Assembly: GCF_025698545.1 (NCBI RefSeq) | Contig: NC_068576.1 | Span: 56,890,094-56,954,093, forward strand | Length of the DNA stretch: 64,000 nucleotides | From: Gossypium raimondii | Taxonomy: Eukaryota > Streptophyta > Magnoliopsida > Malvales > Malvaceae | Direction of reading: 5' to 3' | Part shown: piece by piece, positions 6,765 through 48,617 of the stretch | Layout: each line of letters opens with the position of its first letter | How positions within the stretch are numbered: position 1 is the first letter of the stretch | The notes under the pieces: generated by a model | Databases searched by the model: none | The model's input: the letters and a program-made list of their open reading frames with translations, nothing else | Told to the model about the DNA's origin: nothing | Program-made: the position numbers and the translations under genes

Positions 6765-9758
6765 TTATTGGTACATGAACCCATTGCTTGCAACTGAATA
6801 AGCTGAGCTCTTAAACTGCAGTCTTCAACCTAAAAAAAACACAGTAAGCAATCGTTGTACGTGTACACATTCAAGTGAATAAAATTCCAACGCACATATA
6901 AAAATGGTTTTGAGTGGTGCATTTTCATAATGGGGGAAGGCCAAACCTGAAATGTATTGGTTTTATAAAACAAATCTCCACATTCTTCAATAACAGCTCT
7001 TTCTCCTATTGCCACTCTAGCCAATTCTGAAACTGAACTTTCCATTTCCTCAGCCTGCATTAAAAGGACCAAATTGCATCAATGTTTGTCACTTTTCTGT
7101 GAGGTGTTTTGCATGTTTTGAAAATCGACCTTTACCTTTGGCATAAAGCTTTGAACATTGGAAACTATCATTTCCATCATTTTTATTGCTGAAGTCATTG
7201 CTTCCCCTACCTCTCTTGTATCTACCTGCAAATAAACATATAATAAGAAACTGAAATTGCTTCATTTGAATAAAATGATGAACATACAAAAATGGGAAAA
7301 AAAAGGGTGGAAATATGTACCTTAACATTCCCATTGATTGGCAGTCTAAGAGAAATGTTCAACAAAGATTGAATAGCTTCTGATAAAGAATTTAAGTAAT
7401 CTCTTTGGAATGTAGACCATTCTTCTAGATATGGCATCTAAAAGGAGACCAAAAACAACATGTAAAACTTTGTGTGTAAATAACGTTTTAATTTCATAAA
7501 ATGGCGGTCAATAAAAGTACCATAGGAGTCAGATTACAGTTTACCCTCACTATTCAAAAAATGGAAAATTATCCCCTATATATTAGATCAAAGAGCAAAT
7601 CTGTCTCTTTTGTTAAAAATTTTATCCATTAGTACTGTAAAAAACTGATGTTGCTAACACGTGGCGTGTCCACGTATACCGCATGTTAATGCATAGAGAT
7701 CGGTGTTTAATAGTAAAAATGAATGAAATTTTTAATAAAAAACCAATTTACTCTTTGATCTAATGTACAGAGAGTAATTAGTCCACTTTTTGAATAAAGG
7801 GGAAAAAGGAAATCCAACCTCCAATACTTTTACCAGATGTGGTCTTTATGGAATTTGATGCATTACTAACATCTGTAATTAAGGATAATGACACATAGAA
7901 GTACGGTAACTTAAGATGCACGGAGAGCATTAACATCTATTGTCAAATAATTACACTACATGTAAATGCTCTTAAGGCCTATGTTGCACCACCTCTTTAT
8001 GTTTGAGAATGGTTATGGAGATATGATCTTCCAAGAATACACCAAATACCCGAGTCCAAATAACACAAGACAATGCGAACCGATTAAAGGGAGTATAGGG
8101 AGTATGGGAACATGAACTATCTATGATACAAAATCAAGCTAAACCAAAGCAGTAATGCAAAGTTTTAAGGACCAAAAAGGAATGTGTATATACCACAGGT
8201 GCATGAATGCAAATAAGATCAACACAAATTTGACCAAATTTACAAACTTACATGAGATTCTAGAATATTTGATAAGGTTTTCATCCTTTGTAGTAGTTGA
8301 AGCTCCATGCGTTTCCTTCTCACACAATCATACAACTCTGATATCTTCACCTCAAGAGAATAAAGTATTCTCTAATAAAAGTGGATCAAATCATCATAAA
8401 GAAACAGTGAGATGCTTAATTATATCATAAACAAGTTCCTACATGATCTAAAACATACGCGTATGAAACAAAAAAAACTGAAGTATACCGATCAAAACCA
8501 TTTCTTAAACAAACAAGAAGATACTATATGAAGTTTTGATGAGTTGACTAAGGTGAAAGTATCATGGAGGCCCTTGTAGTCGGATTACATTTTTCTCCAT
8601 TTACTAAAAAAAACGAGTACATTAGTCCTCCATCCATTTCTGCATGGACTAATTTTTTTTTTTAACTAAAAAGGTTAAAATGTAATCTGATTCTTTGTAT
8701 AAGGGCCTCCATGGTACTTTTATCATTAACTAATGAACATTTCACAATAATGAATTGATGTAACATAATAAGTTGCATATGTTAATAAAAGAAAGAACAT
8801 TCAGAGCATAAGGCCTAACCTCAGTTTCTCTTTTCTGAATTTGAGTAGAGTTTTCTGCCTTGGCGTTAGCAAATCTCCATTGTAAATAACAATTGTAAAG
8901 CAATTTCAAGGAATGTAAATCCTCTTGATGACGAGAAATTTTCTTTGATCCCCTTACTGTATCAGTCCCATGCTTTGTATGAGAAGGGACTGGTGGTAGT
9001 GAAAATGGAGTCACCTTAGCAGATTTCCCCTTCATTAGTCCATTAGGAAGATGAAACAGAGAAGGATCGGAACTTAATAGTGGCGAATTCAAAGAGCGGG
9101 AGAGTTTGAAAGACGGCTCGGCACCGTCGCCGTTGTTATCCGCCTCAGGCAATGAGGTGCCTAAATCTATAAGGGACAGAGCAGTACGGCCAGACTCATT
9201 GACAGAGGGTTCTTGAGAAGAAGATGAAGAAGCGTTAGGTTTCGATGATAAACCGATCCCACTTGATTGCAACAACTTGGCGGCCGCAGATGCCTTTGCC
9301 GTCGCCGGAACGTTGGCTGTCCGGTGGTTTAATCTTATTGTTGATGATGGTAATGATGAAGTTCTTTCAATAGTAGGCGTATCTGGCCTTAAAGGCGTAT
9401 TATTTGCTGTGCTTCTCCCAAATAATTTGCTGGTATCGCTATAAGTTCTTGAATGGCGATGCTTCTTTTGAACGGTAGTTATATTTATGAACGGCGATTC
9501 AAGAGAGGCTCTTGGAGTATCACAAGGGGCAACGGCGGGGATGTTCTCGTCAACCTCCGGTTCCGATTGCTGTCTCTGCCGCTGCAAATGGTGTTGCTTT
9601 TGAAGTGGAGATCTCGAATGGTCGCCGGAAGAATGGGAGGATGATACCGGAGACATGAACCTGGAACTGACTTCTCTTACCCTCGGCCGCCGCTGAGGAG
9701 GGATGGGAACGGCAGGCGGCGGCGGCGGCGCCGCAACTTCTTCCGTTTCAACCGGCAT
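6765..9758 (-). CDS. QWRF motif-containing protein (EDE1/AUG8-type microtubule protein)
   Basis: Six exons on the minus strand join in frame: 9758-8820, 8371-8252, 7437-7321, 7225-7136, 7054-6947 and 6830-6765. All introns are GT-AG, and the product is 479 residues. The N-terminal 280 residues are Pro/Ser-rich and basic, with PRVREVSSRFMSP near residue 25, a sequence typical of this family. The signature QWRF is at residues 293-296 (NCYLQWRFANAKAE). The later exons form a conserved helical domain with VRRKRMELQLLQRMK, MPYLEEWS and VSELARVAIGERA. QWRF proteins include ENDOSPERM DEFECTIVE 1, AUG8 and SNOWY COTYLEDON 3, which bind microtubules; AUG8 and EDE1 act with the augmin complex in spindle and phragmoplast. 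The sequence looks closest to the EDE1 branch, but the exact orthologue is uncertain. Two small transposon-like insertions sit in introns 1 and 2. An MSA motif and two G-boxes lie upstream. Confidence 0.93.
7513..7833. mobile_element. MITE family A, copy 1 (QWRF intron 2)
   Basis: The left end reads aaaagtaccataggagtcag and the right end cctccaatacttttac, forming an imperfect terminal inverted repeat. The interior shares 'atattagatcaaagag' and 'tgttaaaaattttatcc' with the copy at 16674. It lies wholly inside intron 2 of the QWRF gene (8251-7438). No ORF is present. Confidence 0.7.
8556..8720. mobile_element. MITE family A, short copy 2 (QWRF intron 1)
   Basis: The ends are almost perfect inverted repeats: aaagtatcatggaggccctt on the left and aagggcctccatggtacttt on the right, about 165 bp apart. 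It lies in intron 1 of the QWRF gene (8819-8372). It is the best-preserved copy of the family and has no ORF. Confidence 0.85.
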
Positions 9759-9885
9759 TGAAAGGATCTATTGAAATCAGATCGATCTCTGTGTGCTAAT
9801 AAAAAATTTCCGATCACTAAACCAAAAATGATAATTGAGTGAAAAAAGATGGTACTATTTTCATATTTTGGTTAGAAGAAAAAAT

Positions 9886-12113: not shown

Positions 12114-13215
12114 AATAACTCAATGGATGATGAGCTAACAAATACACAATAATTTATCTCTTATATAAATTTTTTTACACAATCGATACCTTTTACATTC
12201 ATTTTACGAGATTAATCCTTTCGAGGTTTTTATTATCTTTCTTAATAATATCATAATCTAATATTCAAATACGAGTTTTACAATTGAGAGTATTTATATA
12301 TACTTTTATTACTCATTCCATATATACACTTTTCATTTGGTTAAAATATACTCTAAGCTTATACATTATTTGTAAGTTAGTCGGTTTTTATTTTATTTTG
12401 AATAATTTATTTTTAATTTAAAATATAAGTTCAATTATTAAAATCGTTTAAATTTAAATCATTACAACGTTATATTTCTTTGGTACAGTTGTTCCAAAAT
12501 TTAAATTTATTTTAATATATGGTTGAATAGTTACAAAGTAGAATAAAATCAATACAATATAAAATTAATCTATGGCGATAATAATAGTGACTCTTGAAGT
12601 TAAGTATTCAAGGTCCTAATGCCTCGACTTTGCCAAAAATACTAAAGCTTCATTTGCCCGTGATATAATTTTTAAGATAAAATAAGACATAAATTAGAAA
12701 AATGAAAAAGAAATCCACTATTAAAGTTATTATGAGGGAAATTAGAACTCTTAATTAATACTATAAAACAAAGCCTGCTTTACGTTCCTCAATTCATGCA
12801 TATAAAAAATACCCCAAAATTTCAAACAACCGCATCATCAAATATTACGAAATCGGGGCTAAATTGGACCTAATCATTAAATTCATGTATCAAAGAGTGA
12901 AAAAATATAAGTACCAAAATGAATACAATTGACAAGTGTAGGGGTCAAAAATTATATTAACTCTTGCATGATTGTATCCAATTCACACAATGAATGTCAT
13001 CATCCTCTGTCGTTTCTCTCATTAAAGTAAAGCAAAATCCGAAAACAAAAAAGAAAACAAAAAACGCCCCCCTTCCTTCTCCAATCCAAAATTTCCCGAG
13101 AAAATTTCACCTTTTCTGTCAATCCCCAACCCTCAAAAACCTCCCAAATGCCAAATTCCATCAAATAACCCTAAACAATCAAACACCCAAATCCCTTTCC
13201 CTTCATAAATCCCAA

Positions 13216-15993
13216 ATGTCAGGTCCATCACTCATGGATTCCTTATTTCAACGCACTTTAGAAGACCTAATCAAAGGTCTAAGACAACAACTGATCGGCG
13301 AACAAGCTTTCATTTCCAAAGCCCTTGAAGAAATCCGCAAAGAAATCAAATCTACTGACCTCTCTACCAAATCCACAGCTCTTCTCAAACTATGTTACCT
13401 CTCCAATCTTCACTTCCACGACATGTCTTTCGCTGCTTTCCATGCCTTAGAAGTCCTTTCCTCCCCTCGTTTTTCCCATAAAAAGATAGCTTACCATGCA
13501 ATCTCACTTTCATTCCATGATTCAACCCCTGTTCTTCTCCTTATAACGAATCATTTGCGCAAAGATCTCACCAGTACTAATGAGTTTGAAGTAAGTTTAT
13601 CTCTTCAATGCTTGTCTAGAATCGCTAATGTTGATTTGGCTAGAGATTTGACCCCTGAAGTTTTCACTTTGTTGTCTAGTAATAAGCTTTATGTTCGTAA
13701 AAGGGCTGTGGCTGTTGTTTTAAGGGTTTTTGAGAAATACCCAGATTCTGTTAGGGTTTGTTTTAAACGTTTAGTTGAGAATTTAGAGAATTACGATCCT
13801 CAGATTTTGTCTGCTGTTGTTGGGGTGTTTTCTGAACTTGCTTGTAAAGATCCCAGATCGTATCTTCCTTTAGCACCTGAGTTTTATAAGATTTTAGTTG
13901 ATTCGAAAAGCAATTGGATCTCGATTAAGGTTTTGAAGATTTTCGCTAAATTAGCTCCTCTTGAACCGAGGTTATCAAATCGGGTGGTTGAACCGATTTG
14001 TGATCTTATGAGGAAAACCGGGGCGAAGTCGTTATTGTTTGAGTGTGTTAGGACTGTGGTTACTAGTTTTAGTGAGTATGAATCTGCTGTGAGGCTTGCG
14101 GTTGGGAAGATTCGGGAGTTTTTGGTGGATGAGGATCCAAATCTTAAGTATCTCGGATTGCATGCACTTTCGATTGTAGCCTCAAAGCATTTATGGGTGG
14201 TTTCGGAGAATAAGGAAGTTGTAATCAAGTCATTGAGTGATCCGGATCCTAATATAAAGATTGAGTCGTTGCGTCTTGTGATGGCAATGGTATCTGAACA
14301 TAATGTGGCTGAAATTTCAAAGGTTTTGGTCAATTATGCACTTAAATCGGATCCCCTGTTTTGTAATGAGATACTTGGTTCTATTCTATCAACTTGTTCT
14401 AGGAATGTTTATGAGATTATTGTTGACTTTGATTGGTATGTATCACTTCTTGGTGAGATGTCAAGAATCCCGCATTGTCAGATGGGAGAAGAAATTGAAA
14501 ACCAGTTAATTGATATTGGTTTGAGGGTCAAGGATGTTAGGCTGGAACTTGTTCGTGTTGCTCGTGATTTGCTGATTGATCCTGCTTTACTCGGAAACTC
14601 TTTCTTGCATAGGGTATTATCTGCTGCTGCTTGGGTATCCGGAGAATATGTTGAGTTCTCAAGGAATCCGTTAGAACTTATGGAAGCATTATTACAGCCT
14701 CGTACTAGTTTGTTGCCACCGTCTATAATGGCAATTTACATTCAGTCTGCGTTTAAAGTGTTAGTTTTTTGCCTACATACTTGCTTTGTGCGAGGGGGAA
14801 GTACCGCTGGAGTTTCGGCATCTGCGTCGTATGAATCGTTTGATGATCTGTCCATTGAAAATGGCGCGGGTTCAACTGTTGCACATGGTCAGACATGTAC
14901 ATCAGCTCCTATCACCAATGAATCCATTGTTAACCTATTGAAACTGGTTGAATTAGCTTTGAGCCCTCTATTAGGAAGCCATGATGTGGAAGTACAAGAG
15001 AGAGCACGGAATTTGCTTGGCTTTGTTGATTTGATAAAATTAGAAGCACTGAATTCTTTGGGACAAGAGGAAAATGATTCGGAACAGAAAGGAGTGGAAG
15101 CTACCAAAATCATCAGACTGGTGCACGATGCCTTTTCCAAGGAGCTCGGTCCTGTCTCTTTAAGTGCCCAAGGTAAAGTTCCTGTACCAGATGGGTTAAC
15201 GCTTAACGAGAACCTTGGTGATTTGGAAACAATATGCAGTGATATTGAACTACCTTCATCGAACACATTTTCTTTTGGATATCCTTCTGAGGAGAAGGAT
15301 GTGTCGTCTTTCTCCAACCTTCAGATTAAAGAAGACTCGGGACAATCAAATGAGTCCACTTCTTTGTTAGCGGAGCACCGTAAGCGCCATGGGTTGTATT
15401 ACCTTCCTTCGGGGAAAAATGAAGTAATTTCAAATGACTATCCACCTGCCAATGACCCCGCATTACAGGGTGATAACAATGATACTGCCAGTGATCTTGT
15501 TAAACTCACGGCAGAATCACTTGTTCCGAAGAGAAAACCAAACCATAGCAAGCCTAGGCCTGTGGTAGTGAAATTGGATGAAGCGGATGAGAAACCTGTT
15601 GCAGTAAAGCATCCCGAGTCTAGAGATGATTCACTCTCGGGTGCTGTTCGTGACATTCTTTTCGGTAGTGAAGATATTCTACCCACTTCATCTCGAAGCA
15701 ACCTTCCTAGTAGCAATAGAAAAGGGAAGGAAAAACAACACATGATTACTCAAGTTGAATCAAAAGAAAATGTAGTTGGTGATGGAAATTCTAGTTCGAG
15801 AAGGAGAAAAGATCATAGCCATGGTAAAGAGAGAAGACATAGGAAGAAAAATGCTGAGGAAAGAAATGAGACCGATCGGAAAGAAAAAGAGAGTAGTAGT
15901 AATCACCCCAGAAGGCATAAATCTCGACAAAGAGCCGAGGAGCCTTTAAAAGTTCCTCCACAAACATCGGTGATTCCTGATTTCCTTTTATAG
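13216..15993 (+). CDS. AP-3 complex subunit delta (delta-adaptin)
   Basis: This is an intronless gene for the large delta subunit of the AP-3 adaptor, which in plants works in vacuolar sorting and vacuole biogenesis from Golgi/endosomal membranes. From the ATG at 13216 (MSGPSLMDSLFQR) the product is 925 residues. An in-frame ATG at 12994 would add 74 residues that are Lys/Pro-rich and unlike adaptins, so I prefer the later start, close to the roughly 870 residues of the Arabidopsis protein. The adaptin N-terminal helical-repeat domain fills about the first 600 residues (LEDLIKGLRQQL, STKSTALLKLCYL, LYVRKRAVAVVLRVFEKYP, DPNLKYLGLHALSIVA). Then come an acidic/Ser-rich hinge, LLAEHRKRHGLYYLPSG, a Lys/Arg-rich tail and the conserved ending VIPDFLL. 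As usual for plant delta, no large ear domain is visible. Confidence 0.95.
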   Translation: MSGPSLMDSLFQRTLEDLIKGLRQQLIGEQAFISKALEEIRKEIKSTDLSTKSTALLKLCYLSNLHFHDMSFAAFHALEVLSSPRFSHKKIAYHAISLSFHDSTPVLLLITNHLRKDLTSTNEFEVSLSLQCLSRIANVDLARDLTPEVFTLLSSNKLYVRKRAVAVVLRVFEKYPDSVRVCFKRLVENLENYDPQILSAVVGVFSELACKDPRSYLPLAPEFYKILVDSKSNWISIKVLKIFAKLAPLEPRLSNRVVEPICDLMRKTGAKSLLFECVRTVVTSFSEYESAVRLAVGKIREFLVDEDPNLKYLGLHALSIVASKHLWVVSENKEVVIKSLSDPDPNIKIESLRLVMAMVSEHNVAEISKVLVNYALKSDPLFCNEILGSILSTCSRNVYEIIVDFDWYVSLLGEMSRIPHCQMGEEIENQLIDIGLRVKDVRLELVRVARDLLIDPALLGNSFLHRVLSAAAWVSGEYVEFSRNPLELMEALLQPRTSLLPPSIMAIYIQSAFKVLVFCLHTCFVRGGSTAGVSASASYESFDDLSIENGAGSTVAHGQTCTSAPITNESIVNLLKLVELALSPLLGSHDVEVQERARNLLGFVDLIKLEALNSLGQEENDSEQKGVEATKIIRLVHDAFSKELGPVSLSAQGKVPVPDGLTLNENLGDLETICSDIELPSSNTFSFGYPSEEKDVSSFSNLQIKEDSGQSNESTSLLAEHRKRHGLYYLPSGKNEVISNDYPPANDPALQGDNNDTASDLVKLTAESLVPKRKPNHSKPRPVVVKLDEADEKPVAVKHPESRDDSLSGAVRDILFGSEDILPTSSRSNLPSSNRKGKEKQHMITQVESKENVVGDGNSSSRRRKDHSHGKERRHRKKNAEERNETDRKEKESSSNHPRRHKSRQRAEEPLKVPPQTSVIPDFLL

Positions 15994-19201: not shown

Positions 19202-22200
19202 ATGGCGGCTAAACGGATTCTTAGCAACCCATTTTCCGACCAAGCCGATGAGCCGAAGGAGAAACGGACGAGACCTACCTCTTCTTTTACTTCGTATGTT
19301 TTACCTTTTTTTTAAATTATTATATGGTTGATGGGGATTTCTACATCACATTTCTCACCATTTTACGGTGAAAGTAAGAGATCGCAACTATTTTGTTTGG
19401 TTGGTTAAATCGGTTTTTATCATAATTTACAAAAAGTTATTTAAGAAATGTATAATTGAAGCAACTTTAGGTTGATGAATTTGGTTGGTTAAACAGTCTT
19501 GAATAATATATATATTTTTAAATAATTAAAAATATTAAATTAAATTATTTTTCTGATTAGATCGGAATAATTGACTGAAAATAATCAATAAAATTGAAAA
19601 CCATTCAACTCACCCAAAAACGAAATTGATTAACTTCATCGTGGTTTTGATCTCAGGCTTGGTTTATGTTATATAGGACTTTAGAAGTTGAGATAATTAA
19701 ATGAGATTATATTTGATGCGATAGTTATTTTTAATGGGATTGCAACACTACTTGTCAAATCATGTATTATCTCTACGGTCTTTGTAATGGCATGTATTGT
19801 ATACCCATTTTGTCTTAGAGATATTATAATTTCACATGATAACATTTAAATCTTTTTACATGGTTTTATATTATTTTAAGATGCAATTTTACATATTTTT
19901 TAGTTTTTGATTTAAAATTGTTAATTAGAAATCTAATTTTTTCTTATCTCTAATTGTTTAACAGTGTGATTAGGGAAGCTGTTATGGATAAGTGTTTGAG
20001 CACAGCTCTGGAACCAATCCTTCGAAGAGTGGTATATTTATATACTTTTCATTGCATCAAACAAAATATTTTGGGAAAAAAAAGCATTTTTTAAAGGATA
20101 AAAGTTAAATCAATATTAAAGACATGCGTGTTGGTTCAATTTCGATTTTCAACGTTTTATTTATTTATTTTAGATTTATTGATTTCATGTATTTCTAAAT
20201 TTATTTAAATAGAATGGTTTTTAAAAGTTTTGAAATTAGTTAAGTGGTTGTATAATTTAAAATTTCGTATAAATAATAAAATTTATAATAGAAATAATGA
20301 ATTTATTCTTTAATTTAACAAACTTCTACTTTCACCCTTGAAAATCTTTATGATATTGATACCTAATACATTTGCAGGTGCACGAAGAAGTGGAGCGTAG
20401 TCTTCGAGCTCAAATCCGTTCTTTCAGCAGGTCTCCATCGCTTCGAATCCAAGCACCGCAACCGTCAACTCTCAAGCTCATTTTCCCTAAAGCTCTTACC
20501 GTACCGATCTTTACCGGCGGCAAGATCGTGGATGAAGAGAGCAATCAACTTCGAGTAATGCTTGTTGATACAAGGGGAAACCAAACGGTTCTTTTCCCAA
20601 GCCCATTTAAAGTAGATATCGTGGTCCTCGACGGGGATTTTCCGTTGAATGGTAAGAATTGGAGCAGCGAAGAGTTCGATCGGTACATCGTGAAGGAAAG
20701 AACCGGCAAACGTCCCTTGCTCGCCGGTGAATTGGTTGTCACGGTGAGGGATGGAGTCGGTTTGATCGAAAATATTGAATTTACGGATAATTCGAGCTGG
20801 ATCCGGAGCCGGAAGTTCAGAATTGGCGCGAAAGTTGTGGGAGGGAGCTGCCAAGGTGTACGGATTCGAGAAGCCATGACTGAAGCTTTTGTCGTGAAAG
20901 ATCATCGTGGCGAATGTAAGTTTTCGTCGTTCTCCATATTTATACCGAAATTTTCTTTTCAAATTTTCATAATCTTCTCTTCATTAAGGTTCTAAAGAAG
21001 GTTAGTTAGTTCCATAAAACATGTGATTAAGATCTTGAAGATGAGCTTAATTAGAATCAATCTTCATTCCATTAAACATCTAAAATAATTTTAAATTTTA
21101 AAATATTCTAATTGAAGTTGTTATAATGTTGTATTAATCAATTTCACACATCAATTTAATTTTGTTAAATGTCAAATTAGATATGACGTAGAACATTTTT
21201 AAGATATATAAATTAAATTATAAATATGTGTAATTTTTGTTTGTTCTCACAATATCAAATAGATTTTGAGTTTGAATGATTAACTTAATCTTTTGCTGAG
21301 TTTAATTATTTCTCATGTTTATGTTTTTGTTTTCAACTTTCAATTCAACAATTTGATAAAAGCTGAAAAATGCATATAGATTGTATTCTTTGATGAATAT
21401 ATATTTGAATTACATGAAAAAATCTTATACAAAATAATTGTTAATATATTGAAGTATACAAGAAACATCATCCACCAACGTTAGGAGATGAAGTTTGGCG
21501 TCTAGAAAAGATTGGTAAAGATGGAGTATTCCATAAAAGGTTAGCCTCTGAGGGAGTTCACACGGTGCAAGATTTCTTGAAAATGTGGGTCGTCGACCAT
21601 GCCAAGCTTAGAACTGTAAGTATTTTGCAAGCACTTGTCAAAATTTGTGTTTGCTTTTCTTTTATATATATATATATATAAATCATAAATATAACTCGAT
21701 TCTTGGAACAGATTTTAGGCCCTGCAATGTCAGAGAAAATGTGGAATGTGACAGTCAAGCATGCTAAAACTTGTGTTATGGGGAACAAACATTATGTTTT
21801 TCGAGGACCTGATTACAAAGTCTTGTTGACTCCCATTTGCCAACTTGTGAATGCAGAGATTAATGGAAGCATATATACTACTCACAACCTCAGTGACATT
21901 AACATAGTAAGTGTTAGTAATTGGCTTTATTCGTAAATTAATCACTGAATTATAACTCGAATTTTATATTGGTCTTTAACTTTCTTTTTTTTCTGTCAAA
22001 AGTATATGATGTCTGATAACAATATATCACGTGTCCTTTTCTTATTGATTGATATTGTTTTTCTTGAGTAAACAGAAGAAAATGATAGTTTAGAAATTAC
22101 TTTACGGAAAAAAAATTTAAGGACCAAACTGAAAATTGGCTATAGTTTAGGAGCCAATTTATTTATTTGTTTTGGGTCCTAATGGCATTTGAAATTACAG

Positions 22201-25472: not shown

Positions 25473-28400
25473 ATGACAGTCAAAACACCAGGAACCCCAA
25501 GCAATAAGATAGATAAGACACCAGTAACAACCCCTGGAGGTCCAAAATCAAAGGAAGAGAAGATTGTAGTTACTGTAAGGTTAAGGCCATTAAGTAAAAG
25601 GGAGCAACTAGCCAAAGATCAAGTAGTATGGGATTGTGTTGATGACCATACCATTGTTTCTAAGCATCCTTCTCAAGAACGCACTGCTCAGCCATCTTCT
25701 TTCACATTTGGTAACTCTTTAACTACATATTATTTATATAGTTGGTTTAAGTTTTCATTGGAATTTGGTGTTTGAGGTTCTTCTTTCTTTCTTTTGTTTG
25801 CTCAGATAAAGTGTTTGGACCTTCATGTTTGAATGAAACGGTGTATGAAGGAGTGAAGAATGTTGCTTTGTCTGCTTTGGGAGGCATAAATGGTATTTTC
25901 ATTGTATTATTATCTTTTCTACTGATTACTGTTTTTGTTCCCTTTATTGAACCACTTGAGTCATGTAATTTTTTGTGCAGCTACTATATTTGCATATGGC
26001 CAAACCAGCAGTGGGAAGACATATACAATGAGAGGAATAACAGAGAAGGCTGTCAATGACATCTATCAGCATATAATGAATGTGAGACTGAGCTTCCCTT
26101 GAAGTTTAACTATTTTTTTCTTGTTGCACACAAGATGGCTGTGGATTTCTTAATTATTCTGTTCTGTATTTGAAATGCAGACACCAGAGAGAGATTTTAC
26201 CATTAAAATTTCTGGATTAGAAATTTATAATGAGAATGTTAGAGACCTGTTAAATTCCGAATCTGGCCGCAATCTCAAGCTTCTAGATGATCCGGAGGTA
26301 AATGGCCTTTAACTTCTTTTCATAGGAACAAAGCACTTATGCTTTCAATCCTCCTCCTTCTGTCGTTTACTATATTTTTGTCTGTTTAATCTATGCTTGT
26401 AGAAAGGTACTGTGGTTGAGAAGTTGGTGGAAGAAACAGCAAGCAACGATCAGCATCTAAGGCATCTAATTAGCATTTGTGAAGGTAATTAATGAATCAA
26501 TTGTTTCGAGTTAGCAGACCTTTTCCTTCTTTTAAATGCGAGTCTAATTGTTTTACCGGCATTTGTAGCTCAAAGACAAGTTGGAGAAACTGCCCTAAAT
26601 GACTCTAGCTCACGGTCACACCAAATAATAAGGCTGGTATGAATGAGGATTTCTGTTGGTTTTGTTAACATGCTCAATGATGTATGGAAGCTAATCCATA
26701 AATTTATTTGGCCAACAATGTAGACAATTGAAAGTACTCTTCGTGAAAATTCTGATTGTGTGAGATCATTTGTTGCAAGCCTGGTAAGACTGTATCCCTT
26801 CTCTTCCTTAGCCAATAAAATGAATAAATGTGAGCTGTACAATCCACACTTGCTTTACTATTTGCATGAATTATTGTTGCTGATGACAATCTGTTGGGAC
26901 CAACACTTGTAGAACTTTGTGGATCTAGCTGGAAGTGAAAGAGCTTCACAAACAAATGCCGATGGTGCAAGGCTCAGGGAAGGCTGTCATATTAACCTTA
27001 GTTTGATGACCCTGACAACTGTAATCAGAAAACTCAGGTAAGAATCGATCTTAAAATATTTCTTGTTCTGAATATTCACTGTATTTAGCATTTCATGGGA
27101 GACAATAATGAAATGAACTTCAAAACTAGACATATTTTAAGTTCTATTATCATTGTGTTCATGATTGACTGATCTTTCTTTGCAGTGTTGGAAAAAGAAG
27201 TGGTCATATACCATATAGAGATTCGAAGCTTACTCGAATATTGCAGCATTCACTAGGTGGAAATGCACGAACTGCCATCATATGTACTTTGAGTCCAGCA
27301 CTAAGTCATTTTGAACAATCTCGTAATACTCTCTTCTTTGCTACCCGGGCAAAGGAAGTGACAAATAATGCACAAGTCAACATGGTACTTATCGTTTTTT
27401 CATTCATGCTTTACGAGATTGACAAGAATTTCCTAATGAATTGACATGAAACCTTTTTGGAAACTTTGCTAGGTTGTTTCAAATAAGCAATTAGTCAAAC
27501 ATCTGCAGAAAGAAGTAGCCAGGCTAGAAGCTGAGCTTCGCACCCCGGATCCATCTAGGGAGAAGGACTTGAAAATACAACAAGTAAGTAATAACTATTC
27601 AAAATTGGCTTCATCTTGAATCGATTTATTTCATACTGTAACTTGAAGCATAAGTAATCACATTTCTTGTGTTTGCTCTCTAGATGGAAATAGAGATTGA
27701 AGAGCTAAAGCGCCAAAGAGATCTCGCACAGTCTCAAGTCGATGAGCTACGTAGAAAACTTCAGGAAGATCAGCAGGTTCCGTCACTTTTCCTTCTTATC
27801 TCTCTTCCCCTTTGCACTCCCTTTAGTTCTGGATTCATTTCAACTTACTTGCATGTGTTTATTTATTCAGATTTCAAACCCAATTGAGTCACCAAGTCCA
27901 TCTGTCTTCCCCTTTGCTTCTTATCTCTCTTCCCCTTTGCACTCTCTTTATTTCTGGATTCATTTCAACTTACTTGTATGTGTTTATTTATTCAGATTTT
28001 AAACCCAATTGAGTCACCAAGTCCATCTGTGAAGAAGTGTCTATCGTATTCCGATGTGTTGTCTCCAAAACTTGATGGAAAGGATCTAGGCTGTCATGAT
28101 AAAACAAGAAAAACAATGTTGTTGAGGCAGTCTATGAGGCAATCATCAACTGCTCCTTTCGCACTTATGCATGAAATTCGTAAACTCGAACACCTCCAAG
28201 AGCAGCTAGGAGAAGAAGCAAATCGGGCTTTAGAAGTACTTCAGAAAGAGGTGGCTTGTCATAGACTAGGTAATCAAAATGCAGCTGAGACAATTGCCAA
28301 GCTTCAGGCAGAAATAAGGGAAATGCGTTCTGTCCGGTCAGACCCGAAAGAAGTTGAAGTTGGAGCAGCTATAGCTCCTAACAAAAGTGTTAGTGCTAAC

Positions 28401-30089
28401 CTTAAGGAAGAGATAACAAGACTTCATTCACAAGGTAGTACAATAGCTGACCTTGAGGAGCAATTAGAGAATGTTCAGAAGTCAATAGACAAATTAGTAA
28501 TGTCTCTTCCAAGTAATCAAGAATCCAACTGTGAAGCTACCCCCAAAACAAAGAACCAATCTAAAAAGAAGAAGCTGCTTCCTTTAACGTCAAGTCACGT
28601 TACAAACCGGCCGAATTTTATAAAATCTCCATGCGCTCCTCTGTCAACCTCTCGGCAAGTTGTGGAGCCTGAGAATGAAGAAAATAGACCTCCAGAGGAT
28701 GATGACAATGTTTCCAAGGACACTATCATCGAGTTCGAGAAAGAAACACCTGTGAAGAGTGAAGACTGTGGAGATGTTACATCAAAGGAAGGCACTCCAG
28801 GATATAGACGTTCAAGTTCAGTCAACATGAAGAAAATGCAGAAAATGTTTCAAAATGCAGCTGAAGAGAATGTACGAAGCATACGAGCATACGTAACGGA
28901 ATTGAAAGAACGTGTTGCTAAACTGCAATACCAGAAGCAGTTACTTGTTTGTCAGGTAACAAACACAAGTGCCTTGCCGTTATGATGCCTTACATTTTTC
29001 TCCATTTATCTAGTTTTTGACTTGCTTCTTTTAGGTGCTTGAGCTAGAAGCAAATGAAGCAGCCGGATACAATTTAGAGGACAATGAGAGTGAAATTGAA
29101 CATGAGGAACCCCAAGTTGCATGGCATGTAACCTTCAAAGAACAAAGGCGACAAATCATTGAATTATGGGATGTCTGCTATGTCTCCATCATCCATAGGA
29201 CACAGTTTTATCTGTTATTCAAAGGAGACCCTGCCGACCAAATATACATGGAAGTGGAACTTAGGCGCTTAAATTGGCTACAGCAACATTTTGCAGAACT
29301 TGGAAACGCAAGCCCAGCAATAACAGGAGATGAACCCACAGTGTCATTATCATCAAGGTTCACTTTCATTCTCTCTTTCTCTCAACCACACAATAACACA
29401 CTTCGGTAAAAGTAAAATGGAGCCCTACTAGGAGTCAGATTGCATTTTGCATCTTCTACTAAAAAATAAGCAAATTAATCCCTGTACTAGTTAAAAAAGT
29501 ATATTGGTATTTTCTGTTAAAATTTTCATCTATTTGTACCATTAAAAACTTGCATGGCTGATGGAATAACCAGAGAGTGATATATGGCATGCCACGTCAT
29601 GCTAACGTACATGAACTAGTTTATAAAGTACAAGAACTACTTTGCCCAATTTTTAAGTAGGGGGAGCAAAATGCACTCCCACTCAGAGTACAGGACCTTC
29701 ATGGTACTTTTCCCACACATCTCTTGTTGCATCTAATTGATTATGTCTATTTTATTCACAGCATCAGGGCCTTGAAACGTGAAAGGGAATTCCTTGCAAA
29801 GAGGTTGACCACACGTTTGACTTTCGATGAGAGAGACGCATTGTACATTAAATGGAACGTACCACTTGATGGAAAGCACAGGAGACTACAATTCATAAAC
29901 AAGCTATGGACTGATCCTCATGATCCCAAACACATAGAGGAAAGTGCTCAGATAGTGGCAAAACTTGTAGGGTTTTGTGAAAGTGGTAACTTGTCAAAGG
30001 AGATGTTTGAGCTTAATTTTGCACTACCAGCTGATAAGAAGCCTTGGATGGTAGGGTGGAACCAAATCTCAAACCTTCTTAATCTATAA
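25473..30089 (+). CDS. NACK-type cytokinesis kinesin, TETRASPORE/NACK2-like (KIN-7)
   Basis: Fourteen exons join in frame: 25473-25710, 25806-25892, 25981-26081, 26181-26297, 26403-26484, 26569-26636, 26724-26783, 26913-27037, 27186-27384, 27473-27583, 27684-27776, 27996-28955, 29035-29357 and 29762-30089. The product is 963 residues, the usual size for NACK kinesins. The N-terminal motor has the P-loop GQTSSGKT (115-122), switch I NDSSSRSH (219-226) and switch II DLAGSER (255-261). Coiled coil follows, then the conserved C-terminal NACK domain ([32 protein letters not shown]) ending ISNLLNL. NACK kinesins bind and activate the NPK1/ANP MAPKKK at the phragmoplast midzone and are needed for cell-plate expansion. 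The C-terminal phrases ([29 protein letters not shown]) favour the TETRASPORE/NACK2 branch over HINKEL/NACK1. The acceptor of exon 12 is duplicated, and the 3' UTR is duplicated too. Confidence 0.94.
27792..28030 (+). repeat. Tandem duplication of an intron/exon junction in the kinesin
   Basis: A 114-bp segment occurs at 27792-27905 and again at 27917-28030, an offset of 125 bp, with only a few differences. Each copy has the same acceptor context (atttattcag) and the first 35 bases of exon 12 (...[10 protein letters not shown]). Only the second copy leads into the rest of exon 12 in frame. Splicing to the first (27871) would run into a TAA at 28000-28002. Confidence 0.92.
29408..29711. mobile_element. 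MITE family A, copy 4 (kinesin intron 13)
   Basis: The left end aaaagtaaaatggagccct is inverted with the right end aggaccttcatggtactttt. It shares 'ggagtcagattgcattttgc' and 'gcaaattaatccctgtac' with its relatives. It fills most of intron 13 (29358-29761), so the intron may owe much of its length to this insertion. Confidence 0.8.
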
Positions 30090-31605
30090 GACAAAAATCA
30101 TCTTGTAAGTACTTTTCTCATTTCTGTATATGTAAATGAATTTTTGGAGTCCTTTCTCCAATGTTCTTTGTGACCATTTGATGAGCACATTGTCACTTGC
30201 TGATTGTTTTGAGGTATTCTTTGTATTCTTCATGTTTCAATAATAGAATTTGCTTCATTTTGATGTCAATGAACGTTTCACAATGCTAAGCTATTTTTCT
30301 TTTTTGGCTTTGTTTTCTGGGTTATTTGCACCAGATGTCCCAAAATTATGGTCCAAATTTCAGATTGGTCCCTAAACTTTTCCCATTTCTGTATATGTAA
30401 ATGAATTTTTGGAGTCCTTTCTCCAATGGTTCGTGACCATTTGTTTTGAGCACACTGTCATTGCTGATTTGTTTTGAGATATTCTTTGTATTCTTCATGT
30501 TTCAATAATGGAATTTGGTTCATTTTGAAGTCAATGGAATGTTAAGCTGTTTTTCTTTTTTTGGCTTTGTTTTCTGGGTTATTTGCACTAGATGTCCCAA
30601 AATTTTGAGTCTTTAAAGAACTAATATCATATCAATTTGGTCCTTTCATCAACTATGGCACTATGGCATGCTTGGATTTAAGACACTTGGATCAAATCTT
30701 TAATATATGTATACCTATTGCATGGATAACTTAAATCAAACATGTTAAAAAATGCATGATATCATTATTCAAGTTGTCAATGTGATAGGCACAAACATGT
30801 TTAAAATTTTATGTATATATTGATCATATCCGAGCTAAAATTTAACATCCAAAGTGACAGTTAGATCGACAAAAAGATTTAACTGATACGATTTCAATTA
30901 AAATGTTTCGAAATATAAGGACTAATTTAGAATTTATACCATAATTTGGATACATCAATGCAATTATCCATTTTAGGTCAGGTCCATTGCAACAACGAAA
31001 GGGTTCATTGATATACTTTGTCTAGAGTAATTTAAAGAAGAGAATTAATATACTTGTTTGGTTTGAGTTTGGCTTGAATTTGATATCTAAATTAAACAAC
31101 GGTACGTGACTCAATGAATATTTGACATATGTGCTTTAGTAAAAAGAACATAGCTATTTAATTGGAGAAAAAATTTAGATATCAAATTAAACATTAAAGC
31201 CAAACTCAAGTGCTTAATTGGAAAAAAAAACTCAAGTATCACATTTAAAAATTAATGTACCAATATAAATATTGAAACCAAACTCATGTGCAATTAAGAC
31301 AAAAAGAAACACTTTAATACCAAATTAAACATTAAAACCAACTCAAGTACCAAATAATAGATTAACCCAAAAAAATAATCTAATAATCCAACACTGATTT
31401 CCATTAAATAAATTACTTCTTCAACAACTAGTAGTACATGATATAGATTTCACACACATTAAAAAAACAGTGAACACATTGGTGAAATATCACTTTAACC
31501 CCCCAACATATTGTTTCCATCACAGACTAAACCACATAGTTCTTTTTTTCACTACAAACACCAAAACAAAGATATTATACCACAGCACAACTTGAGTTTT
31601 TTCTT
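30090..31605. other. Kinesin 3' UTR and intergenic region
   Basis: The first 520 bp hold a tandem duplication of the kinesin 3' UTR. The rest, up to the nsLTP gene on the opposite strand, is AT-rich, with dispersed-repeat phrases such as 'accaaattaaacattaaaacca' recurring loosely near 31180-31350. I see no gene. Confidence 0.5.
30119..30606 (+). repeat. Tandem duplication of the kinesin 3' UTR, unit about 265 bp
   Basis: The segment starting catttctgtatatgtaaatg occurs at 30119 and again at 30384. The match extends through 'ttcatgtttcaataatrgaattt' to 'tgggttatttgcac(c/t)agatg'. The copies differ by small indels and substitutions. Each carries the same candidate polyadenylation region. Confidence 0.88.
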
Positions 31606-32001: not shown

Positions 32002-35000
32002 GGGTGGAGGGTGTTGGGTGAAAATGGAAATTTAAGATGGAAAATAGTGGCAAATTGCAATTTTCATGTAGCATTTAGAGAGAGAAAAAGGGGGGGGGGG
32101 GAATGTGAAATATACATTCAGTTTTGGCCCACTTATTTTTATGATTAAATCGGTGGGGTTTACTAAACGAAGAAAATGCCTAAATAAAATGAAGGTGTGA
32201 AATCTAAGCATACAAGTGAAAACTACTTGACCTAATGATTTCAGTTCACTTTATCTGACAAAAACAACCATCAAATGATTTCATGAATGTATAGCTATTC
32301 TATTTTTCTATTACCATTCCAATTTCACCCACAGTGTTGATCAAGTTGTCCACAATATGGTGCGGAATTAATGAAAATGACACTGTATTTTAGCATAAGC
32401 TTTTTTGGCATAGAGTCAAAAGTTAACAGATAAATTTGACAAGGATAGCCACCGAAATGAGGTTTTTCCCTTGTCTTGTCGATAAGAAACCACATGTCTT
32501 ATATGCTAACATGTCCTGCGAAATTGGAGGATTTTAAAATTATTTTTATATAAAACATCATGTTTAATTTACAGTAACATCATGAGAAGTGTAGAAAATA
32601 ATTACAATAAAAATGATTATTACATAAGATATTAAATTTTACAATAGAGACAGTTCACACCATGAGAGGTGCAAAGAGATGTGAAGGATCATTAAACTTA
32701 GAGGTTTTGGAATATGTAGGATGGATAGTTAAGCAGATTAAGCAGTAGGTCTCTTTTGTCATTTTACCTCAGTGATGAGGTATAAGGGATAGGGGTTGGG
32801 TGTGGGTGTGGGTCGCAGCAGCGGAGTTCCCTCTCCTTGAGTACAATGATAGGGCGAAGTGTGTCAACTGGAGGCATTTTAGGAGTTGTGAAGGGATTAA
32901 ACAAAAGTGTTTGCTGGATATGATGGATTGAAAATGTCGTTAGGAACCTTTGCCAATATTTTGTAGATTATTGTGTGGGTTTATTGAGTGTGATGCTTAA
33001 GCGAGGCCATAAGGTCGAGCTCTCCTAGTGAAGCTATGGCAAAATTATTATGTATCGTTAGTCTCTGTAATGATTAATTATTTCAATAACGTGAGTCTAT
33101 TGTTGTGAAAAAAGATTTATGTTCTTAACCTAATTTATATTAATCAGATTTCATGTTCTTATTGAACATTAAATTGTAACTTATTGATTAGCGGTCATCT
33201 TCCCGAAAATGAAAATAAATCATGCAATTATTATCATCTTATAAACATTGGTTACACTTACACAATGATAAAAGAAATTTTGGATTTATATTTTACTAAA
33301 ACAATATCAACATTTTAATTTAATTTAATTTAATTTAAATGATTATCAATGATATATAGTTTATGAGAAAAAATTTGACATTAAGCTTTACAAAAATACA
33401 AATTAAACATGGTACGTGGTAGTCATAATTTTCTGTCCACATTGTTTATAATTAAAGTTGATAAGATCATAATCACTTTTTTTATTTTCAAGTCCTTGTA
33501 TTCTTTGTATATTTGTTTTTAGATTTCAAAATTCAGTTTCAATTATCATTAAAATTCTTCTATCAAATTCATTGATTTGATATTTTAAAATTTTAAAAAA
33601 TACTTACTTTAATAGTCATGTAACAAAAGAAAAGACGTAATGAAATTGAATTTAACAATTAAACTTACGTTTTCAAACAAAAAATTAAAAGGCTTAAATT
33701 TCTTAAAACAAAAATAGAAGGACTAAATTTTAAATGTATAAAAAGTACATGTACTTTTAACCTTATTAAACTCTCCTCTTAATTTATTAATTCCTTTTGA
33801 CAAAACATTATATCTTAGGTCATTTTCAGAAAATACACCGCTAATTTTTATTCAGATCAATTCAGTCCAATGGTTCATTTTAAAAGAAAAATTTAAAAAT
33901 CCGTACTGATATTGGGCTTTAATGATGATATGTACATGCCACAACCAAGGCATGAATTCTGATGCTATGATTAACTCCTCATTGCAATTATTTACTGCAA
34001 TTATTACTTTTCTTTCTTGAATTCCTTTTTTTTACTGCAGGTAAAAAGTTTTTAATGGTCCATTAAATAATTTTATTAAACGTCTCTCAGTATTTTCTTA
34101 TTTAATTAAATGTGGATTTATGTATAGTAAATAATTTATATTATTCAAGTTTTTACTGATATCTGGTGGTTCAAAATTTTAACCCATTGAATGTTATTGG
34201 AAGATCCTCTAAGTAATTTAATTTTAAAATAAAATCAAATAATTATTTTTAAGGATTTGAACTTAGGTGCATTGGAATTTTAGAATCTCAATTTTACCGA
34301 CACAAATAAATGGAATTTTAGAATCTCAATTTTACCGACACAAATAAATTGTTAAGTAATAAAATTATTTTTGTTTTTATTACATCTTCAAAAATTATGA
34401 TTTCTTTTACCCAAATAGTAAGTCTACCATAACACGAGAGATGAGCTCGTCAAAGTGCTGTATGGCTATAGACTATACATAATTTTACAATTTTTGAAAA
34501 ATATTTTTAGAAATTAAAATAAATATTTCGAGCGAACCGTGAAACCCGTATTTGGATATCAACAAGTTTATATAATTGGACTGCTAAAACAAAATCTAAT
34601 TTTAAAGTAAAAAGTTGGACTGCTTGAAATAATAGCATGGGCCTATAATTGCACTTTAAATCTTCACGCCTTCCATGGCATCCGTTGTTGTTTGCAATCA
34701 TGATCTCACTTTTGGCAAACCCCTATCTTCCTTTTACACTTGTTCTTTTCCACCTTCCCACCTATTATTATTATTATTTTCATAGTTATCAATATCAAGG
34801 TAAATATTTTTTAAATTAAATAACAGGTGCGATCGATTTGTTGGTCCGCCAATTTGAATTTTAAATGTTTTTAAATTTTTTCATATATACACACGTGGAT
34901 ATATATAAGTATTCATGTGCAGGAATTAATTTTAAAATGATTAGTTGTTTTTTTTGGCAGAAATAAAAATGGATATAAACAGAAATGATGGAAACAGCCT

Positions 35001-40341: not shown

Positions 40342-42556
40342 ATGGGTGAGAAAATTAGGTACGATACAATATTTGCTAGAAGCTTTAGTCGATATGACCA
40401 GAAAAAGTTAGGATATGGAGCATTTCTAGCTTGTTTTCTTATTGCATTGAGCTTCTCCACTGTCTTCAAGCCTTATTTGGGTCCTTTAACTGTAAATAAG
40501 AGACTATCAATCAATGATGGTTTGAAGATGGTAAGGGCCAATGATACAATCAGCTCTAATGCAACATTTTTTAGTAATGTTGTAATTAGCTTTAATGCCA
40601 CCGTTGAAATGGTTAGTGACGGTTCGAGTAATATGAGTTCAACGTCGAGAAATTACACGATCGGTTCCAGTACGAGCAGTTCTAAGACGTTGGGATTCAA
40701 TTACACTAATGGTGTAATACGGAATGATACAAGGTTGATGCCAGTGTTAGAGATCAACAATGGAAGCAGTTCTCAACAAGGACAGGGTAAGTGTATGTTT
40801 TGTGGATGTGTTGAGGGTGAGTCAACTCTTTCAGGAGAAGTTTTTGAAGTGTTGATTGTTGGATAGTCAATCAGTCCCTCAACAATCGAAAGTATTGTCT
40901 CTGTCTTGGAGTTTTGTCCCTAACCTTCACGGAGAGCCGTGTATGATTCACGGAAGGGGTGTCTCGATTGATGGAGATATTAGTATAGAGCGTGTGAATA
41001 ATTATTGAGCTACTTGAGAGTAAGGTGACTCGAACCACTAACCTAAGTGGTAGGCCAAGCCTCAGGTTGATGGTTCAAGTTGACCTGTACTCAATGGACT
41101 TCATTATTATTCACACACCGTATATTAACACTTCTCCCAAACCTTTCAAGTCATATTTCTACCAACTGAGGTACTCCCCTCCGTGGCTTTCCACGGTGGC
41201 TGGGGATAACACCTCAACATGAAGACAATACTTTCAGTTGTTGAAAGACCGGTCGACTGTTCAATTGAGAAGAGTTCGAAGACTTCTCCCGAAATAGTCA
41301 ACCCACGCTCAACAAAATTTAAAACCCATGTTGAAAACTTAGGATTGTTAGTGATTCTGACAAATATTTTTTTTTTTAATTTTGATTGATTAGGTGGCGT
41401 ACCAGAGAAAATAATAGAGCCAATTTGCAATATTGAAGGAAGAACAGAGTTTTGTGAGATGAATGGAGATATAAGGATCAATGGGAAATCCTCTACGGTT
41501 TTGCAAGTTGGTATGATGACTGAAAATAGTTCATGGATTATCGGTCCGTATGCTCGAAAAGGAGATCGCGAGGCTTTGAGTCATGTAACAAAATGGAGGG
41601 TGAAAACCGGGGTAAAGGATGGTGACAACGGAGTGCATCAATGCAATCGGTACCATGGAGTTCCGGCTGTTGTTTTTTCGCTTGGCGGATATGCGGGGAA
41701 CAATTTCCATGACTACACCGATATCATTATTCCTCTTTATCTAACATCTCGACGGTTTAACGGAGAAGTGAAGTTTCTTATCACCAACAAGAACCCATGG
41801 TGGATCAACAAGTTCAAGACCATACTACGAAATCTTTCCCATTACGACCCAATCGACATTGATAATGAACAACAAGTCCATTGTTTCCCAACCGTGATCA
41901 TCGGCCTAAAACGCGACCCTAAAGAACTAACCATCGATCCATCGAGATCACCTCATTCCATGAAAGAATTTCGACAATTCCTTAGAACAACGTACTCATT
42001 GAAAAAAACCACCGCTGTAAAACTAACCAACAACAATCGAAAAAAACGACCTCGTCTCCTCATCCTTTCAAGGAAAAAAACACGAGCCTTCACCAACACA
42101 AAAGCAATCGCGACAATGGCAAGAACCTTAGGCTACAAGGTAACCATCGCAGAGACCGATTCAAACGTAGCAAAAGTAGCTGAAACCATAAACGCTTGTG
42201 ATGTAATGATGGGTGTCCACGGTGCTGGGTTAACCAACATGGTTTTTCTCCCAAGCAACGCAATCTTAATCCAAATCGTACCCATCGGTGGGTTCGAATG
42301 GTTAGCACGAACCGATTTCGAAGAACCATCGAAGGGCATGAACTTAAGGTATTTGGAATATAAAATTAAAACAGAAGAGAGTACATTGATTCAACAATAT
42401 CCACCCTACCATGAAGTTATAAGGAATCCAGGTGCAATTGCAAAACAGGGTTGGGATGCATTTAAGGCAGTGTATTTACAGCAACAAAATGTGAAGCTTG
42501 ATATACATAGATTTAGACCCATTTTGTCAAGAGCTATTGAGCTTTTACATGAGTAA
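40342..42556 (+). CDS. GT61-family glycosyltransferase (xylan arabinosyl/xylosyltransferase-like)
   Basis: Two exons, 40342-40786 and 41394-42556, join in frame to give 535 residues. The start is the ATG of MGEKIRYDTIFARSF. This is a type II Golgi protein layout: a short cytosolic N-terminus, one membrane anchor (LGYGAFLACFLIALSF, about residues 30-45), and a Ser/Asn-rich stem with many N-glycosylation sites (NDT, NAT, NMS, NYT). The catalytic domain in exon 2 has SLGGYAGNNFHDYTDIIIPL (about residues 245-264), LLILSRKKTRAFTN and MGVHGAGLTNMVFLP (about 420-434), all typical of the DUF563/GT61 fold. GT61 enzymes in the XAT/XYXT group add arabinose or xylose to xylan; the exact sugar and linkage cannot be read from sequence. 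The intron contains a foldback of about 500 bp. Confidence 0.93.
40800..41320. mobile_element. Foldback element in the GT61 intron
   Basis: The left arm (tgttgagggtgagtcaact, from about 40809) is inverted with the right arm (agtcaacccacgctcaaca, to about 41314). The pairing continues inward: aaagtattgtc at about 40890 with gacaatacttt at about 41223, and gtgtgaataattatt at about 40992 with aataattattcacac-like sequence at about 41103. The centre is near 41060. The element lies entirely inside the intron (40787-41393). It resembles a long-hairpin MITE; I see no ORF and no certain target duplication. Confidence 0.78.
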
Positions 42557-45953: not shown

Positions 45954-48617
45954 AAAACCATGGGGAAGAACCATTTTTTTTTTCTAAAAGCACATGCAAA
46001 AATAATCATGGCAGTGGAAGGACATTTCAATCATCTGGTCTTAAACTTCAACATGGATTTTATTTTCCATTTTGACTTTAATAATTATATAGGCAATTTG
46101 ATACTTATACTTTTTTCCACTTTTATCCTTAAATTTGGTAATTAGATTCATTTTTGTCCCTAAATTTAAATTCTATCAAGATTTGATGATGTGATTAGCA
46201 TTACTGAAACAAAATTGGATTGAAAGTAATGGTCCGAATAAAGGGTTGAACTAATTAATTCAAAAACTGCTTGAAATTGGAAAATCGATAATTGAACATG
46301 TTGAACGAGACTAATAATTTATTTTTGTTTTTTTATATTTTATAAATTTGTAATTATTATTGATCTGACAATTGAACCGATTAAACAGGTTGAATGAAGA
46401 ACTAGTGGTTTGACTTATTTAACCACCAGTCTGGTTATTAAAACACTGAATGCGACACTCTGAGATCATACCATTATCACCTGAAAATTTATATATATAT
46501 ATATATATATATATTAATTTTTCAAGTTTAAAGACCAAAATGGATTTAATTGTTAAGTTCAAGAGCTAAAGTTACCCAAAAAAAAAAATACAAGTACCAA
46601 AATAAACTTAATTATCAAATTCAGGGATCAAAAATTATATTATCCTAATTATATAATTTCAATTTTCTTGGGGAGACAAAGAGGAGATTTAGCATGTTGG
46701 ACAGATATTAGGGAAATTTTGTTTCACATTTGATTTCATGTTTGGTATAACTTCTGCAAAAAAGAAAGAACATGTTTGTTCTCATCTCAATTATTGAAAA
46801 ACTGTAATTGAAATTGATTTACTTTTTTTCTTATTTTTGATTGGCCACATTGAAGAAACATAGAAACAAACAAAGCTTGAAGAAGATTCATGTATGTGTG
46901 TATCTATATTTTTGCTCGAAAAAGATAAACCAGAAAATTTTTTAGTTAAAGAGAGGAAAAATCTAAGATGAGATTCATGAACCTATTTATTGAGAACCAG
47001 TGGGAATATTCTTGCCCTTTCAATTTATATATATAAGATGTAATCATTTGTGGAACATGGTGTTGTCCAAAATGGTTCATCATTGGCCTTGACAGAGATG
47101 CTGCTGTGTTGAAGAAAAAGAGTTGGGAGAAATTTTGGAGACATGTTTTTATTGTATAAATTATCATTTGAAGATCTCAGCACAAGTGGGGGTGAGATAC
47201 TACTGAGTTTATTACCAACTTTATTACAACATGGGTTAAATGTCCATTGACTTAAAAAAGACCAAATATACTTAAGAATACACTTGTGGGATTTAGCTGT
47301 ATTCCTTGATTATTACAATAGGTGAACAAAACCATTACATGTAGAAGAAGAACCTTCCAGGTTTTCTAGTAAGTTGCCGATAGTGTTTTTATTCATTTTA
47401 CTGTCTGAATTTAACATTTTTCAGATCAAAATCTTTCAATAATGTTAACTTTAAATTTTAAATTTATTTTAAATATCGAAGAAAAGAACCCATCAGTTAT
47501 TATTTTAAATTGCAATTTCCAGCTATGCTTTTGTTGCAAAAGTTGTAAAAGGAAATTTTGGATATATATGCACATTAAATAAATCAGTAACATGAGATTT
47601 GAATTTATGGTTTAGGGAGTAAATTTTTAAGCTTGAATTATAATAATTTACTTAAATTTGACTTGTTAAAGTTTTAAAATTTTCGACATTTTAACTTTCT
47701 TAAATTAAAATTAAAATATTAATGACATAAATCAAATGAGTCAAATTAAATAATTCCATCGATTTTAAAATAAGTAAAAGCATTAAAATATTAATGACAT
47801 AAATCAAATGAGTCAAATTAAATAATTCCATCGATTTCAAAATAAGTAAAAGCTAACGTTTTGATCACTTAACTTTAAAATGTTACAAAATAATCATTAA
47901 ATTATTCAAAAGTTTTTATTTAAATCATTAGTTGTTAAGTTTTTTTTTTTTATAAAAAAATCTGGCTAGTGAGTTCCAAGTGGTATTCAACGACTGATAC
48001 GCTGGATCAATACCCATCGATGAGTAGAAGAACATAACTTAGATCCAAATCAATCTAACGATCAATGTTGGGGATCGGAAAAGAAAGTTGTTTAAATTTT
48101 GGGCTGGAGATTCGTAACATTTAAAATTGTTTATAAGGAAAAAAATAAATTGTAGAAGAGAAGGGCAATGGGAGCTTTCAATTGGTGTAAGCAGTGCAAA
48201 CAAATAAGGTTATACAATCGCGACTTTAACAATCCAATGACTTAAATGAAAACTTTCAAATAATTTAATGATAATTTGGTAACTTTTTGAAATTGAGTAA
48301 ACAAAATATAAACTTACTAATAATTTAGTGACCTTAAATGTAATTTACTCAAAAATTTTAACAAGTCAGGCCCAAAAGAATTCATTTGAAAATATTGCAG
48401 CCAAATTAGTCCAAAACATGTGAAAAATGATGCTTGGGATTTAAGATCCAAGTAAAATTTATTTATATATTTATAATTAAAAAATTTAAATATCTACCAA
48501 GTTATCTTTACTCGTGTAATTCTAATTTATTCAAAAGCTGTAAAATTATATAGTGTTTGATTATATAAAATGGATATAATTTGTGGCTCACTCTATTATT
48601 TTTTCTTTATTAATATT
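45954..48617. other. Intergenic region with simple and tandem repeats
   Basis: No gene is seen. It contains an (AT)n run at about 46490-46514 and a dispersed repeat at about 46120-46640 related to one at 52180-52560 ('accgattaaacaggttgaatgaagaac'). It also holds a 72-bp tandem duplication (47710-47853) and low-complexity AT-rich DNA. Confidence 0.5.
47710..47853. repeat. 72-bp tandem duplication
   Basis: The unit beginning attaaaatattaatgacata occurs at 47710 and 47782. The copies differ by a single base that I can see (gattttaaaat and gatttcaaaat), so the duplication is young. Confidence 0.92.

Follow-up and report, generated by a model that had tools for sequence, protein, structure and literature searches.

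The window analyzed here, a 64,000-nucleotide stretch of Gossypium raimondii DNA, contains a kinesin gene of 14 exons on the forward strand (Table 1). The exon model, obtained by picking GT-AG sites by eye from the sequence alone, is translated into a protein of 963 aa without any internal stop when exon 12 is taken to begin at position 27996. Comparison to Pfam revealed matches to Kinesin (3e-101), DUF3490 (1.4e-71), and Microtub_bd (1.6e-23). The Kinesin domain (PF00225; residues 36 to 351) is complete, covering positions 1 to 327 of the 327 positions of the profile, and the C-terminal DUF3490 domain (PF11995; residues 781 to 943) covers positions 2 to 160 of 161. The top two matches of the motor to solved sequences (best 60 of 157 matched) were CENP-E motors (1e-72 and 9.8e-72), which places this motor in kinesin-7. 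We take the DUF3490 tail to tie the protein to the NACK kinesins and the N terminus to resemble that of NACK1. The combination of a kinesin-7 motor, a DUF3490 tail, and a NACK1-like N terminus suggests that the gene encodes a plant NACK-type cytokinesis kinesin. The sequence-only reading had proposed a cytokinesis kinesin, and the Pfam and CENP-E matches support this identity as that of a kinesin-7 with a DUF3490 tail. According to the excerpted text of PMC1434745, NACK1/HINKEL and NACK2/TETRASPORE of Arabidopsis are kinesin-7 proteins with a role in cytokinesis; that text makes no mention of a duplicated acceptor. The same reading had labeled the gene dose sensitive, for which no support was obtained here, the title of Tanaka 2004 (as cited in PMC1434745) describing the two Arabidopsis NACK genes as functionally redundant and essential for cytokinesis. 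A search of viral contigs with a 115-aa query from exon 12 revealed no relatives, with 3 pattern matches.

Elsewhere in the window, matches to QWRF, Calmodulin_bind, and Glyco_transf_61 were found in open frames (Table 1), and the Calmodulin_bind frame presumably resembles CBP60. A single open frame of 999 codons at positions 12994 to 15993 (+) matches Adaptin_N (2e-82) and, judged by eye, may be an intronless gene for an AP-3 delta subunit-like protein. Pieces of a copia-type retrotransposon are located at 60118 to 61936 (-) and 63138 to 63665 (-), with RVT_2 in two open reading frames, an SH3-like match in one, and a third frame that is gag-like by eye. Outside the kinesin gene, two-copy tandem repeats are present at 47710 to 47853 (72 bp; 98%) and at 34273 to 34349 (38 bp; 100%). 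Neither Rfam families at gathering scores nor tRNA genes were found in the window.

Table 1. Coordinates of the features of the window discussed in the text
Feature	Position	Strand	Remark
QWRF match	8742-9767	-	Open frame
Calmodulin_bind match	20360-20995	+	Open frame
Kinesin-7 gene, putatively NACK type	25473-30089	+	ATG-to-stop coding span; 14 exons, GT-AG model
Kinesin-7 exons 1 to 7	25473-25710, 25806-25892, 25981-26081, 26181-26297, 26403-26484, 26569-26636, 26724-26783	+	
Kinesin-7 exons 8 to 14	26913-27037, 27186-27384, 27473-27583, 27684-27776, 27996-28955, 29035-29357, 29762-30089	+	
Intron 11, full-length splicing	27777-27995	+	219 nt; 94 nt once the 125-nt offset is deducted
Upstream repeat copy	27792-27905	+	Intron 11 end plus 35 nt of exon 12 sequence
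Upstream acceptor, first base after	27871	+	Adds 125 nt; 470 aa ending at TAA
Junction stretch TCTTCCCCTTTGC	27905-27917	+	11 nt separating the copies plus one base from each
Downstream repeat copy	27917-28030	+	Productive acceptor (predicted) and exon 12 start; 110/114 identical to upstream copy
Donor-like GTATGT	27976-27981	+	Downstream copy only; upstream counterpart GCATGT at 27851
Downstream acceptor, exon 12 first base	27996	+	Frame kept
TAA in upstream-acceptor frame	28000-28002	+	Stop after 470 aa
Glyco_transf_61 match	41390-42556	+	Open frame

The boundary between intron 11 and exon 12 lies in a segment that is present twice, as a direct repeat. The 114-bp repeat at a 125-bp offset reported by the sequence-only reading was recovered to the base, the two copies being identical at 110 of 114 positions. 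Slightly wider boundaries were returned by a repeat search (27783 to 27905 and 27908 to 28030, with 94% identity). Tandem Repeats Finder, run over the whole window with a minimum score of 80, placed the repeat (27788 to 28030; period, 125; score, 451) at the top of 13 rows. A chance repeat was ruled out, since the best 114-base match in five simulated Markov-1 sequences was 59 to 61. For lags of 20 to 2,000, the runner-up 114-base self-match in the window was 92, at position 30119 with a lag of 265. This match belongs to a second direct duplication, located just past the kinesin stop codon (30119 to 30270 versus 30384 to 30535), in which 92/114 is the best stretch and the middle part is out of register; a match at a lag of 257 starting at 30282 (68/114) hints that this duplication continues. 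The repeats at 27792 and 30119 indicate that the kinesin locus underwent at least two local duplications.

The four differences between the copies of the intron 11 repeat (upstream/downstream) are 27820 C/T, 27826 G/T, 27852 C/T, and 27875 C/T. The downstream copy therefore contains T at all four positions, and the upstream copy contains C or G. A false local duplication introduced by the assembly is very unlikely, in view of these differences, of the extra stretch present at the junction, and of the lack of N in the window. The divergence between the copies is 3.5% (95% interval, 1.0 to 8.7%; JC, 0.036), which, with a rate of 7e-9 per site per year, corresponds to an age of 2.6 million years (1.2 to 7.2 million years for the four rates used); this age is not firm, because it depends on four differences only and because the copies might derive from unlike haplotypes.

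The 13-nt junction stretch TCTTCCCCTTTGC recurs at 27803 and 27928, once inside each copy, which makes a clean unequal crossing-over less likely. Simple head-to-tail copying would not leave TCTTCCCCTTTGC at the join. We infer both the direction and the mechanism of the event as follows. A replication or repair slip would have duplicated approximately 114 bp, running from the 3' terminal part of intron 11 to 35 nt into exon 12, and a short intron-derived piece would have been inserted at the join of the copies. The copying strand would have jumped back over a short distance twice, first into the TCTTCCCCTTTGC stretch and then slightly further upstream. The recurrence of the 11-nt junction could fit template-switching repair, although such a match might also arise by chance in this pyrimidine-rich sequence. 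As a result, intron 11 would have been lengthened from 94 to 219 nt and would now contain a nonfunctional duplicate of the beginning of exon 12.

The duplication provides the donor located after 27776 with two near-identical acceptors, before 27871 and before 27996, at the positions deduced in the sequence-only reading. Joining of the donor to 27871 and to 27996 defines introns of 94 and 219 nt, respectively, so that the upstream acceptor keeps the donor spacing of the shorter intron. The last 18 intron bases and the first 4 exon bases are identical at the two sites. In the acceptor matrix, the upstream and downstream sites scored 8.90 and 9.36, ranking 12 and 11 among the 335 AG sites of the gene (12 training sites included), and they beat the leave-one-out scores of 10 and 11 of the 12 other acceptors, respectively. 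The acceptor and donor matrices, built from 12 and 13 sites of the kinesin gene alone, rank sites only roughly, because the training sites are few and the leave-one-out scores vary widely (-6.45 to 11.01 for acceptors and -0.96 to 11.14 for donors). A candidate branch point, CTTAC, is found at the same distance in both copies, with its A 23 nt upstream of the AG end. The last 50 nt contain 27 T residues for the downstream acceptor and 25 for the upstream acceptor. Only two of the 13 donors score lower than that of intron 11 (CAG/GTTCCG; leave-one-out score, 3.05), and this low score could favor irregular splicing. According to RNA folding predictions, the downstream branch-point candidate would be more paired (0.78 versus 0.50 to 0.64 upstream) and the downstream acceptor core would be more open (0.33 versus 0.39 to 0.46 upstream). 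The predicted local structures of the branch point and of the acceptor core point in opposite ways and do not decide the choice of the site.

Only the downstream acceptor keeps the reading frame, since use of the upstream acceptor shifts it by adding 125 nt. Translation bore out the earlier claim that the shifted frame runs into the TAA at 28000 to 28002; the next stop in that frame is a TGA at 28030. The resulting 470-aa product lacks DUF3490. The TAA is located 953 nt upstream of the exon 12/13 junction, exon 12 ending at 28955. By the usual rule, a premature stop triggers nonsense-mediated decay when another exon junction is located well downstream of it. The position of the TAA therefore leaves the upstream-spliced mRNA open to this decay, by which the transcript would probably be eliminated.

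The trinucleotide score of the 125-nt extension was -0.47 bits/nt, with ranges of -0.02 to 0.64 for the 14 exons and -0.73 to -0.17 for the 13 introns, in a comparison that is mostly in-sample, as the model was trained on the same exons and introns minus intron 11 and positions 27996 to 28030. The extension is intron-like, which argues for the downstream site being the productive one. Our preferred reading, to which we assign a probability of about 0.75, is a passive tandem duplication with the downstream acceptor as the main site. Full-length kinesin would be obtained by splicing of 27776 to 27996, and the upstream acceptor, devoid of any regulatory role, would be skipped or would be used in a minor share of the transcripts, whose premature stop would lead to their removal by nonsense-mediated decay. 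The intron-like extension, the slight T excess, the slightly higher score, and the need for a full protein favor this main use of the downstream site. Counting against it are the strong score of the upstream acceptor, its first position, which first-AG scanning would favor, its original donor spacing, its branch-point candidate, the low score of the intron 11 donor, and the stronger pairing predicted for the downstream branch-point candidate. In addition, the 35 nt of exon sequence in the upstream copy are still exon-like (0.163 versus 0.035 for the downstream counterpart). In the excerpted part of a Drosophila study, decay is argued to hide poorly spliced new introns from selection (PMC2809761).

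The near-equal local strengths of the two sites, together with a frame and a TAA position that suit decay, are also what would be expected from a productive/unproductive switch, in which the acceptor ratio would be regulated and the upstream site would lower the kinesin dose via nonsense-mediated decay. We consider such a switch, which had been raised by the sequence-only reading next to a silent upstream site, improbable, since the extension is intron-like and since a frameshift of this kind would follow from two of every three duplication lengths, so that the frame pattern says little by itself. A working dose control, with the upstream acceptor used in most cells to produce decayed transcripts and the downstream acceptor used in dividing cells, would amount to a one-step mutational switch and appears very doubtful.

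If the upstream acceptor were instead dominant, this gene copy would be a damaged allele, hypomorphic or null, surviving via heterozygosity or a redundant paralogue. First-AG scanning, which data are said to suggest in plants too (PMC3017782, in excerpt), combined with the earlier position of the strong 27871 site, would favor that acceptor. In the same source, a single-base intron change in RPT5b is associated with 12 to 25% mis-splicing and with the unequal redundancy of two gene copies. A damaged allele is nonetheless unlikely, as the 963 codons are otherwise uninterrupted and the domains are complete despite the 3.5% divergence of the repeat copies. This divergence suggests that the gene remained functional with the duplication present, although it could be older than the duplication itself in the case of recombination between two unlike haplotypes.

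Additional candidate splice signals are present in the repeat. The upstream copy contains an extra AG at 27825 to 27826 (TTTAG), lost in the downstream copy via the G/T difference. The corresponding acceptor at 27827 scored 4.26 and was set aside, since a 50-nt intron would remain and the site precedes the CTTAC candidate. Recursive splicing is unsupported, since ATTTC, and not GT, comes directly after the upstream acceptor. The donor-like GTATGT of the downstream copy scored 5.55, inside the range of the 13 donors of the gene, and could delimit a 105-nt exon (27871 to 27975) that has no stop codon and would keep the reading frame when joined to exon 13; this joining would drop exon 12. The 105-nt exon is a purely hypothetical curiosity. 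The GT dinucleotides at 27888, 27896, and 27904, within the exon-derived segment of the upstream copy, scored -6.87, 0.56, and -9.72, respectively, with the same small matrix. Two real donors (-0.96 and -0.07) fall below the 27896 candidate. A 33-nt mini-exon ending at the 27904 donor is disfavored, since the score of this donor is below those of all 13 real donors.

A tandem duplication across intron 1 and exon 2 has been described in a potato RNA-dependent RNA polymerase gene, in which GTAAG, derived from the exonic segment, served as the donor of a new intron, as shown by 106 RNA-seq reads (PMC4974935, in excerpt). The kinesin gene resembles this precedent, so far as the excerpt describes it (PMC4974935), by the presence in a plant gene of a direct tandem copy of an intron end and an exon start, by differences between the copies (ten positions in potato and four in the kinesin gene), and by the inheritance of a branch site, a pyrimidine tract, and an acceptor by the second copy. 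Unlike the potato gene, the kinesin gene has an exonic part devoid of GTAAG, in which the sole in-frame GT is very weak. A longer single intron is therefore expected. Birth of a new intron of the potato type, with a 33-nt mini-exon (27871 to 27903) or with the 105-nt exon joined to exon 13, would share the geometry of the potato case, would involve exons that are both in frame and open, and could rely on GTATGT or on the GT at 27896. We nevertheless regard it as extremely unlikely: the in-frame donor of the 33-nt exon scores under every real donor, the 27896 donor would lead to a 25-nt frame-shifting exon, the 27976 donor would omit all 320 codons of exon 12, and the donor in potato was GTAAG (PMC4974935).

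Duplicated 3' splice sites have likewise been described in plants for snapdragon FAR and grass OsMADS3; according to the excerpted source, both duplicated sites work in OsMADS3, and seemingly only the new one works in FAR (PMC7261849). These duplications involve 3 nt and keep the frame, whereas the kinesin duplication adds 125 nt and shifts it. In Arabidopsis RPT5b, the acceptors of intron 7 also compete, use of the minor one leading to a frameshift and a premature stop, but the competition is associated with a base change proposed to create a branch point rather than with a duplication, and it is the downstream acceptor that is used less (PMC3017782, in excerpt). Among the NACK1 literature matches listed, no duplicated acceptor in a NACK kinesin was apparent from the titles and the openings of the abstracts, which is not proof of absence. 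Tandem duplication over an intron-exon boundary is a known kind of event, and the potato, OsMADS3, and FAR precedents make the kinesin case another member of it.

If real and old, the duplication would provide a natural test of how the plant spliceosome chooses between near-identical acceptors 125 nt apart, which differ mainly by their position and by the downstream exon content and of which only one yields the complete protein. The kinesin gene would also add to the plant examples of introns that tandem duplication reshaped without making a new one.
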